Below, in pieces: positions 994 to 11,201 of a DNA stretch of 38,448 nt. Below the pieces are notes generated by a model, which was not told where the DNA came from, made no database searches, and worked only from the letters and a program-made list of their open reading frames with translations. The first letter of the stretch is position 1; every line of letters starts with the position of its first letter. Both the position numbers and the translations under genes were made by a program. Source of the DNA: Pseudomonadota bacterium (GTDB lineage: Bacteria; Pseudomonadota; Gammaproteobacteria; Acidiferrobacterales; Acidiferrobacteraceae); NCBI GenBank assembly GCA_021777535.1, contig JAJYDN010000021.1, positions 1-38,448 on the forward strand. The letters run 5' to 3'.

Positions 994-2376
994 GGCGCGC
1001 AACCGCGCGCTGGCCCGCGCCACCGCCGCCCGCACCTGGGCGGGCGCGGTGCCCCCGAAATGGTTGCGCGCGGCAAGCGAGCCCTCCAGTGTGAGGACCG
1101 CGAACACGTCCTCGCCGATGATGGGCGCGCACTGGCGCAGCTCGGCGAGCGGGAGCGCCGCCAGATCGACTCCGCGGTCGATGGCAAGCCGCACGGCTTT
1201 GCCGGAGGCCTCATGGGCGTCGCGGAATGGCATCCCCCGGCGAACCAGGTAATCCGCGAGATCCGTCGCCGTGGCGTAGCCGCGGCCGGCTTCCGCGCGC
1301 ATCCGTTCCCGGTGAAAGGTCGTTGCCGGCAGCAGTTCGGTGAGGGCGCGCAGGCTGTCTGCGAGGGTGTCGAGCGTATCGAAGAGGGCCTCCTTGTCCT
1401 CCTGGTTGTCCTTGTTGTAGGCGAGCGGCTGGCCTTTCATGAGCATCAAGAGGCCCACCAGATGACCGGTTACCCGTCCGGTCTTGCCGCGCAAAAGCTC
1501 CGGGACATCCGGGTTTTTCTTCTGGGGCATGATGGATGAGCCCGTGCAAAACCCGTCTGCGAGCTCGATGAAACCAAATTGCGGCGTCGACCAGAGCACG
1601 AGTTCTTCGGCAATGCGGGACAGGTGCACCATGGCAAGCGCCGCATCTGCCGTGACCTCGATGACGAAGTCCCGGTCCGATACACTGTCCAGCGAGTTTT
1701 CGGATACCGCCGCAAAGCCGAGCAGCCGCGCCGTGAGTTGCCGGTCGATCGGAAAGCTGGTGCCGGCCAGGGCGCCCGCCCCGAGCGGCAGGACGTTGAT
1801 GCGCGTGCGCGCCTCTTGCAGGCGGGCATGATCCCGCAGGAACATCTCAAACCACGCGAGCAGGTGGTGCCCCAAGGTAACGGGTTGGGCGACCTGCAGA
1901 TGCGTAAAGCCGGGCATCACGGTGTCCGCCTCGGCAGCAGCGATGTGCACGAGGACCTGCATGAGCTCTTCAAGGCGCCCGAGCAGACCGTCGACCTGGT
2001 CGCGCAGATAGAGCCGTATGGTGGTTGCCACCTGGTCGTTGCGCGAGCGTGCGGTGTGCAGCTTCTTGCCGGCCTCGCCGATGCGTTCGGTCAGGACCGC
2101 CTCGATGTTCATGTGGACGTCTTCCCGCGCCACGGACCACGTAAACTGGCCGGCGTCGATTTCGGCCTCGATGGCCGTGAGGCCCTCACAGATCCGGGCG
2201 GCCTCGTTTTGCGAGAGGACCCCGACCGCCGCGAGCATCTGCGCGTGCGCCTTGGAGCCCTGGATGTCGTGGTGATAGAGGCGCCGATCAAAGCCGACGG
2301 AGGCGGTAAAGTGTTCCACGAAGGCGTCGGTCGGCCCGCTGAAGCGGCCCTTCCAGGCCTTGTCGGGAGTGGACAT
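976..2376 (-). CDS. argH: Argininosuccinate lyase
   Basis: ArgH splits argininosuccinate into arginine and fumarate, the last step of arginine synthesis, as a cytoplasmic homotetramer. The 466-residue protein has the fumarase/aspartase superfamily signature [15 protein letters not shown] around residue 280, plus TARSRNDQ and the [17 protein letters not shown] block. Length is normal. The ATG at 2376 gives [12 protein letters not shown], matching family N-termini; a TTG 21 nt upstream is an alternative. The 3' end overlaps the plus-strand gene at 601-993 by 18 bp. ArgH beside algZ-algR is the order known from Pseudomonas, which supports vertical inheritance. argB lies elsewhere in this window (34780). 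Confidence 0.96.
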
Positions 2377-5627: not shown

Positions 5628-6140
5628 TCACATCCGCCACAAGGCGGCCGCCGGGTGCATGACAACGCCATCGGGCGGCCGCAGCTGCCGTTGCCGGATG
5701 GCGTCCAGTGCCAGCGCCACTTTGGGGAAATCCCGCTGCAGGCGCCAGAAGACGCGGGCCTGGCTGTGATTGCGTTCGAGGTCGGCGCTCTGTCCAAATG
5801 CCGTGCGGCCATGATCCACGTAGTAGGCCAGTTGCCCGCGGGCGCGCAGGCGTTCCCGGAAAAAGCCGCTCATGAATAACGAGTATTCGCCGAGATGGCG
5901 GATGAGGAGGGCCGCGCGTGCCCGGTCGCATCCCTGTGTCTGCTCCAGTTCCGTCAGAAACTGCGCGAGCGTCGTCAGGTGGCGCTCATTGTGGTCCCGA
6001 AGAGGGTAGAGGGCTTCCGTGTGGGCGAAACGGGCCAGGATATCGGCAACGTAATCGATCGTCCCTGGTTCCGCGAGTCCCGCCTGGCAAAATCCATGCT
6101 GGACATGGCGGTGAAAGAATTGAAACAGACTCGGCCCCAT
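5628..6140 (-). CDS. Protein of unknown function
   Basis: The 170-residue soluble, helix-rich protein starts MGPSLFQFFHRH. It contains an alternation of conserved-looking aromatic and charged segments: HLTTLAQFLTELE, LGEYSLFMSGFFRERL, GQLAYYVDHGRTAFG and FWRLQRDFPKVALALD. No signal peptide or membrane segment is visible. The family is not recognised by me. The start at 6140 is supported by AGGAGG 8 nt upstream. A good -10 hexamer TATACT lies at 6183-6178 on the minus strand, about 37 nt upstream of the start. The stop is 11 bp from the algR stop, tail-to-tail. It could be an independent transcription unit. Confidence 0.75.
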   Translation of the reverse strand: MGPSLFQFFHRHVQHGFCQAGLAEPGTIDYVADILARFAHTEALYPLRDHNERHLTTLAQFLTELEQTQGCDRARAALLIRHLGEYSLFMSGFFRERLRARGQLAYYVDHGRTAFGQSADLERNHSQARVFWRLQRDFPKVALALDAIRQRQLRPPDGVVMHPAAALWRM

Positions 6141-6177
6141 GCAACACACCTCCTGCGCCGTACAATTCTTCGGGTAA

Positions 6178-6409: not shown

Positions 6410-7195
6410 TCAGGGATCGATGGCGGTGACGAGCTGGCGGTCGAATGTCCACGCGAGCGCGGCGCGCAGATCGAATGCGCCGTCCATGCGGGCTGCGGTT
6501 TCACAGCCGAGCGCAACCGCTTCGGCGAGCGGCCGGCCGTGCGCGAGTGCAAGCAGCCAGCGCCAGTTTGCGGGCATCAGGGTTTCCATGGTCACGGCCC
6601 GGCCCTGGCGGTAGACGACGACCGCTGCCGCCTCGCGTTGCTGAAGGGCTTTACGCGCCGCCTGTTTGTCGACGCGGCCGCTTGCCGCCGCGAAGATGCG
6701 CGCAACCGGGTATGGTGACGCGAAAAGCCGCAGGGAAGGGGCCAGCCGCAACCGCAGATGGGCCCAGGCCTGTCCGTCGATGGCGGCGAGGAGGGCAAGA
6801 GGCAGGCCCGGCTCCTCGGCAGCCGCCACGCTCTCGGTGCGGATCCATTCGAGACGCGCGACATCAGGGAGATAGGGATAAAGGGCGAGTTCGGGGCGTT
6901 TTTCCAGATAATCCGCAAAGGCGGCGCCGAAGTCCCGGAGATTACCCGTCGGCGCCCGATGCCAGCCGCCGTAGCCGCGGGCGGCATTGCGGAAGTAGCG
7001 TCGCCCGGTCAATGCCAGTACGACCGGGTAGGTGGTCTCGAGCGCATCACGCCAGGCAAGCCGCAACTGGTTGTGATAGACCCACAGGCGCCGTTGCGGG
7101 GCCAGCCCGTTGCCCGCCACGAACGCCGCGGCTTCGTCAAAAGCGCCCTCCGCCAATGCCCGGGCCCATTGCGCCTGGCAGCTAGCAAGCGACAT
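6410..7195 (-). CDS. bufC: BufC/HvfC-type DUF2063 protein, RiPP maturation partner
   Basis: The 261-residue protein belongs to the DUF2063 (HvfC/BufC) family, the accessory partner of MNIO-family oxidases in bufferin-type RiPP operons. The N-terminal domain (1-95) has the family pattern: APQRRLWVYHNQLRLAWRDALETTYPVVLALTG interrupted by short variable parts, then FRNAARGYGGWHRAPTGNLRDFGAAF. A C-terminal domain (about 110-260) follows. The ATG at 7195 ([14 protein letters not shown]) fits family N-termini and has GGGA 9 nt upstream; an ATG 9 nt further upstream is possible. It overlaps bufB by 14 nt and is the last gene of the bufABC operon. In homologous systems this subunit binds the precursor peptide and presents it to the MNIO enzyme. 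Confidence 0.88.
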   Translation of the reverse strand: MSLASCQAQWARALAEGAFDEAAAFVAGNGLAPQRRLWVYHNQLRLAWRDALETTYPVVLALTGRRYFRNAARGYGGWHRAPTGNLRDFGAAFADYLEKRPELALYPYLPDVARLEWIRTESVAAAEEPGLPLALLAAIDGQAWAHLRLRLAPSLRLFASPYPVARIFAAASGRVDKQAARKALQQREAAAVVVYRQGRAVTMETLMPANWRWLLALAHGRPLAEAVALGCETAARMDGAFDLRAALAWTFDRQLVTAIDP

Positions 7196-8057
7196 CACGG
7201 CCATTCCCGCTGGTGCTTCTCTGCGCGCGCCCGATTTCCGAGACGAGTTCGGCAAGCGGTGGCAGCGCGGCATCGCGCTCGAGCAAGGTCGGCCGGGGGC
7301 CCATCCGTGCCAGCACGGCATCGTAGAGCGCCCAGACCGCTTCAGGGACCGCCCGGTCGTGACTGTCGATCCACATCTCGCCGCCGGCAAACTGGTTGCA
7401 GTGGCAGCCGGCGAGATGGATTTCGCGCACCGCCGTCACATCGATACGGTTAAGGAAATCATGCGCATCCTCGCCATGGTTGCGCCCATTGACATACAAA
7501 TTGGTGAGATCCAGCAGCACCCCGCAGCCTGTTGCGCCAGCGAGCCCGTTGATGAGATCGACTTCATCGCGGTCGTCTTCGCGGTAACGCATGTATGCGG
7601 CGATTGGCTCGATGAGGAGCGAACGCTTCAGGTGGTCTTGCACCTGCTGGATATGGGCTACGAGACGGTCGTGGGTTTCCTGTGTGAACGGCATAGGTAA
7701 AAGCTGATGGAAATGGCGGCCTGCATGGGCCGTCCAGCAGAGATGCTCGGAGACGAGCGCCGGCTCAAGACGCAAGGTGAGTTCCGCCAGACAGTGCAGT
7801 GCCTGCGCATCGAGGGCGGCATTGCCGAGGCCCAGGCTCACGCCATGGAGACTTATCGCGTAATCGTGCCGCAATGTCTCCAGGTCGGCATAGTCCGCGC
7901 TGCCCGTATCCCGGTAGTTTTCGGGATGGATTTCCAGAAAGTCCACCCGCGGACGCAGCGTCCGCCACGCCTCATGATGGGGCCTGCGCAGGCCGATGCC
8001 GGTCCAGGCATCGGGTGTCTTGGAGGCACTGGCTACGGCTGATGCGACTTGGCCCAT
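7182..8057 (-). CDS. bufB: BufB, MNIO (DUF692) multinuclear non-haem iron oxidase
   Basis: The 291-residue DUF692 protein is a TIM-barrel multinuclear non-haem iron oxidase of the MbnB/HvfB/BufB family; such enzymes oxidise cysteines of RiPP precursors to heterocycles or related groups. The expected ligand-bearing motifs occur in order: [63 protein letters not shown] and [12 protein letters not shown]. The ATG at 8057 ([10 protein letters not shown]) lies inside the bufA coding end (25 nt overlap), with GAGG upstream. The longer open frame extending to 9122 is not used, because it runs antisense through bufA and purT. The copper- or metal-buffering role is inferred from family work on bufferins. 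Confidence 0.92.
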
Positions 8058-8473
8058 TGCGCGGCCTCGGCGAGATAATGGGCCGCAGAGGCATGGTAGA
8101 TCTCCTGTTCGCGCAACGAGGGCACGGCATGGATGCGTGCGCGTTCGGCGGCCGGGAGGGCGAGGAACTTGCGGATGTGGGCTGCGGCCTTTGCGCTGGG
8201 CACCGCGCTGCCGCCGATCTCCGTGCAAATGCCGACCGGCATCCAGACATAGGCGCTCGGATCGTGCGCGTGCGGGTCGGTCCCGGCGCAGGATCCGGTG
8301 GCGGTCAGACAGTCGTTCTTGTAGGCTGCGTTGACGCCCCAGCAACGGACCCATCCGGCGTGCCAGGCCTTTCCGGGTGCCGCGTGCGCGGTATCGAGCG
8401 CGGCCATGGCGGCCGCACTGCCCAGGGCGGCCGCCGTCGTGACGCGTTTCATCCACTGGTTGGTCTGTGTCAT
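8033..8473 (-). CDS. bufA: BufA, DUF2282 bufferin precursor with long C-terminal extension
   Basis: The 146-residue exported RiPP precursor starts at ATG 8473, 8 nt after AAGGAG. A signal peptide is evident ([24 protein letters not shown], read in two parts; cleavage after AHA near residue 34). The DUF2282 core follows with four cysteines in the family spacing: [18 protein letters not shown] and GICTEIGG. In bufferins the central cysteines are the ones modified by the MNIO enzyme. The core ends near residue 94; the remaining 52 residues ([15 protein letters not shown] to [12 protein letters not shown]) form an amphipathic helical extension not expected in the usual 85-100 residue family members. 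It is the first gene of bufABC; no DoxX gene (HvfD) is present. Confidence 0.85.
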
Positions 8474-8552
8474 GCGCACATCTCCTTGGCGTGGTGGCCG
8501 GGGACCGGCCCGGTGCGTCGCCGCCCGCGTTCGATTCCGGCCCTGCTTGTTT

Positions 8553-8565
8553 TAGATTTAATCTA
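8553..8565 (-). promoter_or_regulatory. Perfect palindrome upstream of bufABC
   Basis: TAGATT-T-AATCTA is a perfect 13-nt dyad, AT-rich in a GC-rich setting, 80 nt upstream of the bufA start. It overlaps the likely promoter region, since -10-like hexamers occur on both strands (TACAAT on plus at 8564-8569). It may bind a metal- or redox-responsive regulator; the regulator is not identified. Confidence 0.4.
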
Positions 8566-8891
8566 CAATGGATCGCCGTGGCACACAAGGATCCTTTGGC
8601 GGCGGGTGGGGCGCGGTCCTGCGGCCGGCCAGGTCGAACGCGCTCTGCGGTTTCCGGCCCCTCGGCCCGGTCCCGGGACTTGCGCGCCGGCAGGGGGCGC
8701 GGGGGTGCCCGCCTGAGCGACCTGGCCGCAGGGCCGCGTACGGAAACCCGGTCCCCATGTCCACGCTCCCGCATTGGCATGCGGCTCCCCCGATGCGCGC
8801 GATACGGCGGAATGAAGAGAGCGGGATCCTTGATTGACAGGGCGGGACCGGTCGGTATCATGCCGCACACCGTTTGCCTCTGGAGTGCGCC
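8566..8891. other. Gap between bufA promoter region and purT
   Basis: About 325 bp of GC-rich DNA. Reading frames on both strands here are Arg/Pro/Gly-rich and have no recognisable product. Nothing supportable is seen apart from the purT ribosome site at the right end (GGAG, 7 nt before the ATG). Confidence 0.5.
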
Positions 8892-10115: not shown

Positions 10116-10625
10116 CTAGAAACCAAAGCCGATGCCGAGGCCAAAGTTCCACTGGGGACGCGGATAGTAAGGGCCCGGATAGGGGCGGGGGCGGGCGCGC
10201 CAGAGGTGCGCGGCAAGCAGGCGGATCGTCGGATAGATGTAGGGGGCCTGGCCGATCATCCCTTTTTCGGTGCCCGTGACGACGCCCACGATACTCACCA
10301 GCCGGCCGCGCCCGTATAGCATGGGATCCAGATATCCTGGGGAAATGGCCAGGAAGCGCCCATAAGGCAGCTTCCCAAGGCGCGGCCGCCCGTCTTCTGC
10401 GAGCGGAAACGCAAGTACGGTCAGCGTGCTCCGTGTCTTGCCGACTGTGTCGTGGACGATCACGCCGCCCCAGCGGACACGGGCGTCGGCCGTCGCGCGG
10501 GGATCAGCGAGGACTGCGCGGACGGTGACGGCGGTATCGATTCGCGGCGCCGGCGGACGCGGTTGTGCCGCACAGCCACAGAGCGCCGTGCCGAGGATGG
10601 CCAACGCCAGCGCGCGGGGGCTCAT
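10116..10625 (-). CDS. Slp-family outer-membrane lipoprotein (copy 2)
   Basis: The 169-residue lipoprotein has a signal ending in the lipobox LCGC (Cys17), which predicts a mature N-terminal lipid-Cys. The body matches the Slp (starvation lipoprotein) family: VRWGGVIVHDTVGKTRSTLTVLAFPL, GRPRLGKLPYGRFLAISPGYLDPMLYGRGRLVSIVG split by family-typical turns, then GQAPYIYPTIRLLAAHLW. The tail is Pro/Tyr/Gly-rich (PYPGPYYPRPQW). It lies 18 nt downstream of a second slp gene, so the two arose by tandem duplication and form an operon. Slp is stress-induced in E. coli; function here is unknown. Confidence 0.88.
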   Translation of the reverse strand: MSPRALALAILGTALCGCAAQPRPPAPRIDTAVTVRAVLADPRATADARVRWGGVIVHDTVGKTRSTLTVLAFPLAEDGRPRLGKLPYGRFLAISPGYLDPMLYGRGRLVSIVGVVTGTEKGMIGQAPYIYPTIRLLAAHLWRARPRPYPGPYYPRPQWNFGLGIGFGF

Positions 10626-10643
10626 GCCGGACGGAAAACGGGC

Positions 10644-11201
10644 TCAGTAACCATAGGGCCAGCCCCAGCCCCAGCCCCATCCCCATCCCATTCGCCAGCC
10701 GGGCCCCATCCATACCGGTCCCATCCAGCCCCATGCGGGCCAGGGCTCGACATACTCATAGCGGACCTCGGGCCGTGGCGCCCACAGGTAGCGCGCGGTG
10801 GCGGTCACCACGGGAAAATCGTAGGCATATTTGCCGATGGGGGCGCGCTTGAAGCCCGTGAAGGTGCCGACCACGGTCACCTCGCGGCCCACCGCATAGA
10901 GGTCGGGGTCCAGGAATCCGGGGATGCGCGCGAGAAACCGTCCGTCGCTGCGGAGAGAGCGGTGCGGGCGGCCGTCTTCACGCAAGGGGAGACTGATTAT
11001 CTGCAGCCATGTCGCATGGGGTGCGTTTGTGACATGGCTGATGACGCCGCCCCAGCGCACCTTGACGCCAGGGGGCACGACATGCGACCGGGCGGCCTCC
11101 ACTGTCGTGCGCGTTATGCCCGGGCTGCGCAACGCCGGTGGAACGGGGGCCGCGCATCCGGCCAGCAGAAGGAAAATGCTCACCATGATCCAGCGCTGCA
11201 T
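10644..11201 (-). CDS. Slp-family outer-membrane lipoprotein (copy 1) with Trp-Gly tail
   Basis: The 185-residue paralogue of the downstream gene has lipobox LAGC near residue 16 and the same core: VRWGGVISHVTNAPHATWLQI, DGRFLARIPGFLDPDLYAVGREVTVVG in consecutive parts, then KYAYDFPVVTATARYLW. The C-terminus is an aromatic low-complexity tail (WMGPGWRMGWGWGWGWGW, then PYGY) encoded by imperfect CCCCAG/CCCCAT hexamers at about 10656-10700. ATG 11201 is preceded by AAGGA. The tail probably faces the periplasm or the outer-membrane surface; its function is unknown. First gene of the two-gene slp operon, divergent from lon. Confidence 0.88.
   Translation of the reverse strand: MQRWIMVSIFLLLAGCAAPVPPALRSPGITRTTVEAARSHVVPPGVKVRWGGVISHVTNAPHATWLQIISLPLREDGRPHRSLRSDGRFLARIPGFLDPDLYAVGREVTVVGTFTGFKRAPIGKYAYDFPVVTATARYLWAPRPEVRYEYVEPWPAWGWMGPVWMGPGWRMGWGWGWGWGWPYGY

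Follow-up and report, generated by a model that had tools for sequence, protein, structure and literature searches.

A DUF2282 bufferin operon with a conserved, predicted helical C-terminal tail on its precursor and a divergent BufB

Background

Bufferins, a class of modified peptides that handle copper, were recognised only recently and are widespread. In Buf1, thiooxazoles are formed on the two central cysteines, the outer pair makes a disulphide, and copper is bound (PMC12452194). The same source gives Buf1 precursor lengths of 30 to 835 residues and describes fusions of the types Buf1/cytochrome c/FGE-sulfatase, Buf1/Buf1, MerC/Buf1 and MerC/Buf2, so that long Buf1 proteins as such are already known. 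In the related HvfBC system it is the signal peptide which acts as leader (PMC13419390).

Organization of the buf operon

A stretch of 38,448 nucleotides (the window) was analyzed and found to contain bufA, bufB (MNIO) and bufC (DUF2063) in contiguous order on one strand, bufA lying directly upstream of bufB (Table 1). The ATG of bufB overlaps the 3' end of bufA by 25 nt. The original prediction had reported the bufA open reading frame without its strand; the frame exists, and it is read from 8473 down to 8033. Based on Pfam, PF10048 (DUF2282) covers residues 42-88 of the product with an E-value of 9.3e-12 and 45.2 bits against a curated cut-off of 22.4, while among the NCBIfam bufferin models none exceeded its cut-off, NF050166 (BufA2) reaching 23.6 of 60 bits. 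Judged by eye, the N-terminus looks like a typical signal peptide rich in Ala, and its cleavage site can plausibly be placed after residue 31. The genome from which the window comes gave a single match to the precursor and, at E-values up to 10, a single match to the tail profile. The tail had been described as 52 further residues, a figure which fits if one counts from after GGSAVPS; the protein actually continues for 63 residues past the last core cysteine and for 58 past the Pfam match.

Table 1. Features of the buf operon in the window
Feature	Position	Strand	Remarks
bufA, tailed Buf1/DUF2282 bufferin precursor, 146 aa	8033..8473	minus	TAG stop at 8033-8035
Putative Sec signal peptide, residues 1-31	8381..8473	minus	cleavage between A-H-A and A, by eye
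DUF2282 core around four Cys, residues about 43-88	8210..8347	minus	Cys44, 55, 62, 83
C-terminal tail, residues 89-146	8036..8209	minus	predicted helices 94-104, 108-115, 118-143
bufB, MNIO maturase	7182..8057	minus	MbnB_TglH_ChrH, E 1.8e-88
bufC, DUF2063 (RRE-type) partner	about 6410..7195, start approximate	minus	DUF2063, E 1.6e-15
TAGATTTAATCTA near-palindrome	8553..8565	not assigned	about 90 nt upstream of bufA

A TAGATTnnnTCTAAA-like element upstream of bufA is also present in two of the related loci (L005 and L006) and is perhaps an operator or promoter. No Rfam match was obtained in a scan around the buf operon. Downstream of bufC lies a 173-codon frame without Pfam match (5628-6149, minus strand), and two adjacent, similar lipoprotein-like frames with ends rich in aromatic residues, Gly and Pro are found at 10116-11201 (minus strand).

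The surroundings of other tailed operons were also recorded. Two tandem tailed precursors precede one bufB-bufC pair in L008 (816-1785) and L009 (1788-2757), and a third tailed precursor is located elsewhere in each of these genomes (L042 and L043), with no bufB in the stretch fetched. In L007, genes for a PadR-type regulator and a chromate transporter are situated just downstream of the tailed operon (7221-8837, plus strand). A sigma/anti-sigma pair has been reported for many Buf1 clusters; the tailed operon of L114, from a genome of family f157, has instead a GntR/UTRA regulator gene directly before it (1507-2235, plus strand), and a similar frame precedes that of L111.

Conservation of the tail

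Five loci from genome contigs encode relatives at 61-83% identity, each with the tail in frame and extending 63 residues past the last cysteine. To judge from their equal lengths, the contigs of L002 and L005 appear to be identical, as do those of L003 and L006. An earlier true stop, hidden by a sequencing error, had been entertained in the original prediction; it is excluded, since five other genomes carry the tail in frame. The four cysteines (44, 55, 62 and 83) are found without exception in the 18 tailed members.

Between the window and L005, dN/dS was 0.023/0.76 in the core and 0.075/0.91 in that portion of the tail which lies outside the overlap. The signal peptide, at 0.278/1.17, is the fastest-evolving section of bufA. 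Weight is placed on near pairs only, because several of the more distant ones were saturated at silent sites. The tail is under purifying selection.

Predicted fold of the tail

When the tail was modelled alone from eight sequences, the three helices listed in Table 1 were obtained (mean pLDDT 82.9, pTM 0.47), and a small three-helix domain is therefore predicted. The whole mature protein was modelled poorly (mean pLDDT 56.4), and this model does not show whether the tail touches the core; the same stretches were helical, with the last helix split in two.

Searches for known relatives of the tail returned little. Among 13 tails submitted to Pfam there was a single match, to DUF6513 in one member only (E 0.08); the best hit in a PDB sequence search had an E-value of 1.1; and in Foldseek comparisons with PDB folds the whole model reached 3.8 at best and the tail model had no match. 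The first half of the tail resembles the short helix-LPPAER-helix motif of DUF3106 (PF11304) repeats, scoring 15.6 against that profile as compared to 9.2 for the best of 30 column shuffles. Membership of DUF3106 was rejected, profile comparison giving 3% probability and the Pfam model not being matched; the resemblance is at the level of the motif only.

Length classes, distribution and hosts

The searches returned 149 loci; in these and the window, 150 sequences in all, residues after the last cysteine were counted with a Cys-spacing pattern. The 61 distinct DUF2282 proteins fell into two classes with none between, 43 having 9-22 residues and 18 having 52-66, the latter including the near-identical pairs L008/L009 and L042/L043. 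The statement of the original prediction that ordinary BufA precursors end soon after the last cysteine thus holds for 43 of 61, in a sample which is enriched for tailed relatives and misses unusual cores. As both the spacing pattern and the selection of loci favour tailed relatives, the proportion 43:18 is not a frequency.

Genome samples were searched at several taxonomic levels. Of 57 genomes in the order, 19 had a match to the full profile, and the tail was seen there only in three belonging to the window's genus. At class level, the full profile found matches in 107 of the 369 genomes; strong matches to the tail profile (E 2.8e-13 or better) were confined to three (G000, G320 and G414), with three more at E 0.006-0.009. 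In the phylum sample the tail profile matched two of 398 genomes, namely the window's own (strongly) and one at E 0.005. Follow-up of these weak matches (G140, G255, G356 and G744; E 0.005-0.009) led to a DUF3106 protein (L154) and a LonB-like protein (L153), while L152 and L109 were unconfirmed. Four of the five genomes of family f157 matched, all with a related but shorter tail of 52-56 residues past the last cysteine. Nine of 31 genomes in the order of G059 matched; the tail was present in two (G058 and G059), and the other matches stopped at profile position 99 or before. The scan of viral contigs revealed no relative, and plasmids gave partial matches only, in 58 and 70 records, all of which fell short of 80% coverage of the query. 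The tailed form is rare.

Rusticyanin is tied to acidophilic iron oxidation. Rusticyanin-like matches with E below 1e-15, never over the curated cut-off, were present in seven of 10 tailed genomes and in none of 25 short-tailed ones; since the seven represent two lineages only, this contrast is a hint of acidophilic hosts rich in copper proteins and not a test. The tailed genome of L009 is named Acidithiobacillus sp.

The maturation partners

A tree was constructed from 34 BufB proteins, 10 from tailed operons and 24 from short ones. Rows with a short aligned part were dropped: L113 (163 residues) in the first, 18-row analysis, and L113 (151) and L143 (204) in the 34-protein tree. In G426, the bufB that adjoins a tailed precursor (L113, 3159-3749, minus strand) is open for 197 codons only and looks broken or truncated.

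The BufBs of the window and its close relatives, six in all, formed one group (support 100/100) whose branch measures 1.87 changes per column, and all six closest tailed precursors go with it. The four tailed BufBs of f157 formed a separate group (87/94). A single clade of all ten was neither established nor rejected (p-AU 0.495); a single origin of the long-tail BufBs had support of 76/85 in the first 18-row tree, and in the BufC tree two changes were needed. In all six BufBs of the window's clade an E-N pair is changed to E-P (window position 151) and an N-N pair to T-N (window 185), compared to Asn at both sites in 28 of 28 others. The ligand-like residues H71, H105, E150, D183, N186, H214, D231, H233 and E260, which we take to serve as iron ligands, are kept in all six. 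In HvfB, the site-3 ligands N175, D242 and H244 are essential (PMC13419390), and by our mapping these appear to correspond to N186, D231 and H233 of the window. Alternatively N175 may be the first Asn of the pair; the second is preferred here because solved MbnB and TglH keep that one only. A GCH-NQF loop follows HLAG in the BufBs of the window and L008.

The window BufB scored 304.7 bits against NF050167 (NCBIfam BufB), below the cut-off of 310, and its BufC is divergent as well, with 49 bits compared to the NCBIfam HvfC cut-off of 142. Two genomes, G414 (L110 and L121) and G059 (L009 and L129), hold a tailed operon together with a separate short-tailed precursor which has its own bufB. Taken with the bimodal lengths, the purifying selection and the predicted helices, the divergent maturase clade supports the suggestion that these precursors make up a bufferin subfamily of their own, set apart by a helical domain at the C terminus.

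Proposed role of the tail

Whereas the gene, its operon, the four cysteines, the conserved and predicted helical tail with the selection acting on it, and the divergent BufB come from the analysis itself, the following scheme is what we infer for the chemistry, for the tail being kept and for what it does. BufB and BufC would oxidise the central Cys55 and Cys62 to thiooxazoles in the cytoplasm, guided by the signal peptide, and the precursor would be exported by Sec. In the periplasm the outer Cys44 and Cys83 would form a disulphide and the core would bind copper. We assume that the mature protein keeps the tail as a small domain of three helices. The tail most likely comes into play once the protein has been exported, in an environment rich in metal and probably acidic: it would pack against the copper core or cap it, or else it would let the bufferin dock to another copy of itself or to a different protein of the periplasm. 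In this reading bufA encodes a genuine Buf1 precursor belonging to the tailed subfamily; action of the tail in the mature protein, its most likely role, is put at about an even chance. Five tailed precursors (L115, L116, L117, L118 and L119) had no bufB in the stretch fetched, which fits with a role in the mature protein.

The main rival is recognition during maturation, where the tail would be a follower or specificity tag on which the BufB/BufC of this clade dock, thereby separating tailed from ordinary systems in the same cell. The best argument for it is provided by G414 and G059 with their paired tailed and short-tailed systems; in addition, the six precursors of the window's clade are all paired with one divergent BufB clade, tail type tracks BufB clade, and BufC has diverged too. 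Against this, maturation of ordinary bufferins needs no tail, and some tailed precursors have no bufB near them in the stretches fetched. The follower for BufB/BufC suggested in the original prediction is thus possible but not favoured, given that ordinary bufferins manage without one and that the HvfBC leader is the signal peptide (PMC13419390); we consider it a tentative alternative, with perhaps one chance in four. A broader version is that tail and divergent BufB/BufC are a co-evolved orthogonal system of acidic, metal-rich habitats, with the tail as recognition domain and an MNIO, altered by the E-P and T-N changes next to its iron ligands, that makes a modification or serves a metal unlike thiooxazole and copper; this appears rather unlikely.

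Two further proposals of the original prediction concerned composition. Several His residues were correctly noted in the window tail (five, at 99, 115, 127, 132 and 144), and they would be the basis for an additional metal-binding domain. Across seven representative tails of the clade no His position is common to all, His99 being present in five and one tail having a single His, and Cys is absent; His-based metal binding is accordingly disfavoured and seems improbable. A membrane anchor or targeting signal would suit a C-terminal, predicted helical element, but the window tail has no hydrophobic or strongly amphipathic segment, the helical moment being at most 0.52 over 11 residues, and this explanation is very improbable. 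The idea that the tail has no function and arose because a stop codon was lost or because bufA runs into bufB, which the 25-nt overlap in the window might suggest, can practically be dismissed, as bufA and bufB of L007 do not overlap and yet the same tail is present, dN/dS stays far under 1 in the part not shared with bufB, and the full-length tail is common to six genomes.

Comparison with known systems

The original prediction had allowed for the tail being a described family feature. It is indeed common to the close homologues, but no description of a helical bufferin tail was found in the literature searched, which included the portions consulted of PMC12452194, PMC13097082 and PMC10214503, and it is not among the fusions listed in PMC12452194. 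A rare subfamily with an added, predicted folded domain and a diverged maturase offers a natural test of the determinants of MNIO/RRE recognition, and also bears on how such peptides work in metal-rich, probably acidic periplasms.

The Buf1 (DUF2282, PF10048) bufferins are the closest described relatives: like them, the window's precursor has four cysteines with a matching spacing pattern and is followed by MNIO and DUF2063 genes, and it has a putative signal peptide. It differs from the short form in its 63 residues past the last cysteine, as compared to 9-22, and the tailed form has a conserved WHxGWVxC entry motif. The published fusions likewise join the core to another domain, those being known Pfam domains whereas this tail has no Pfam match (PMC12452194). 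The HvfA/HvfB/HvfC oxazolin system shares the pairing of an MNIO with a DUF2063/RRE partner; its HvfA precursor is an EGKCG-repeat peptide, while that of the window is a DUF2282 protein (PMC13419390).
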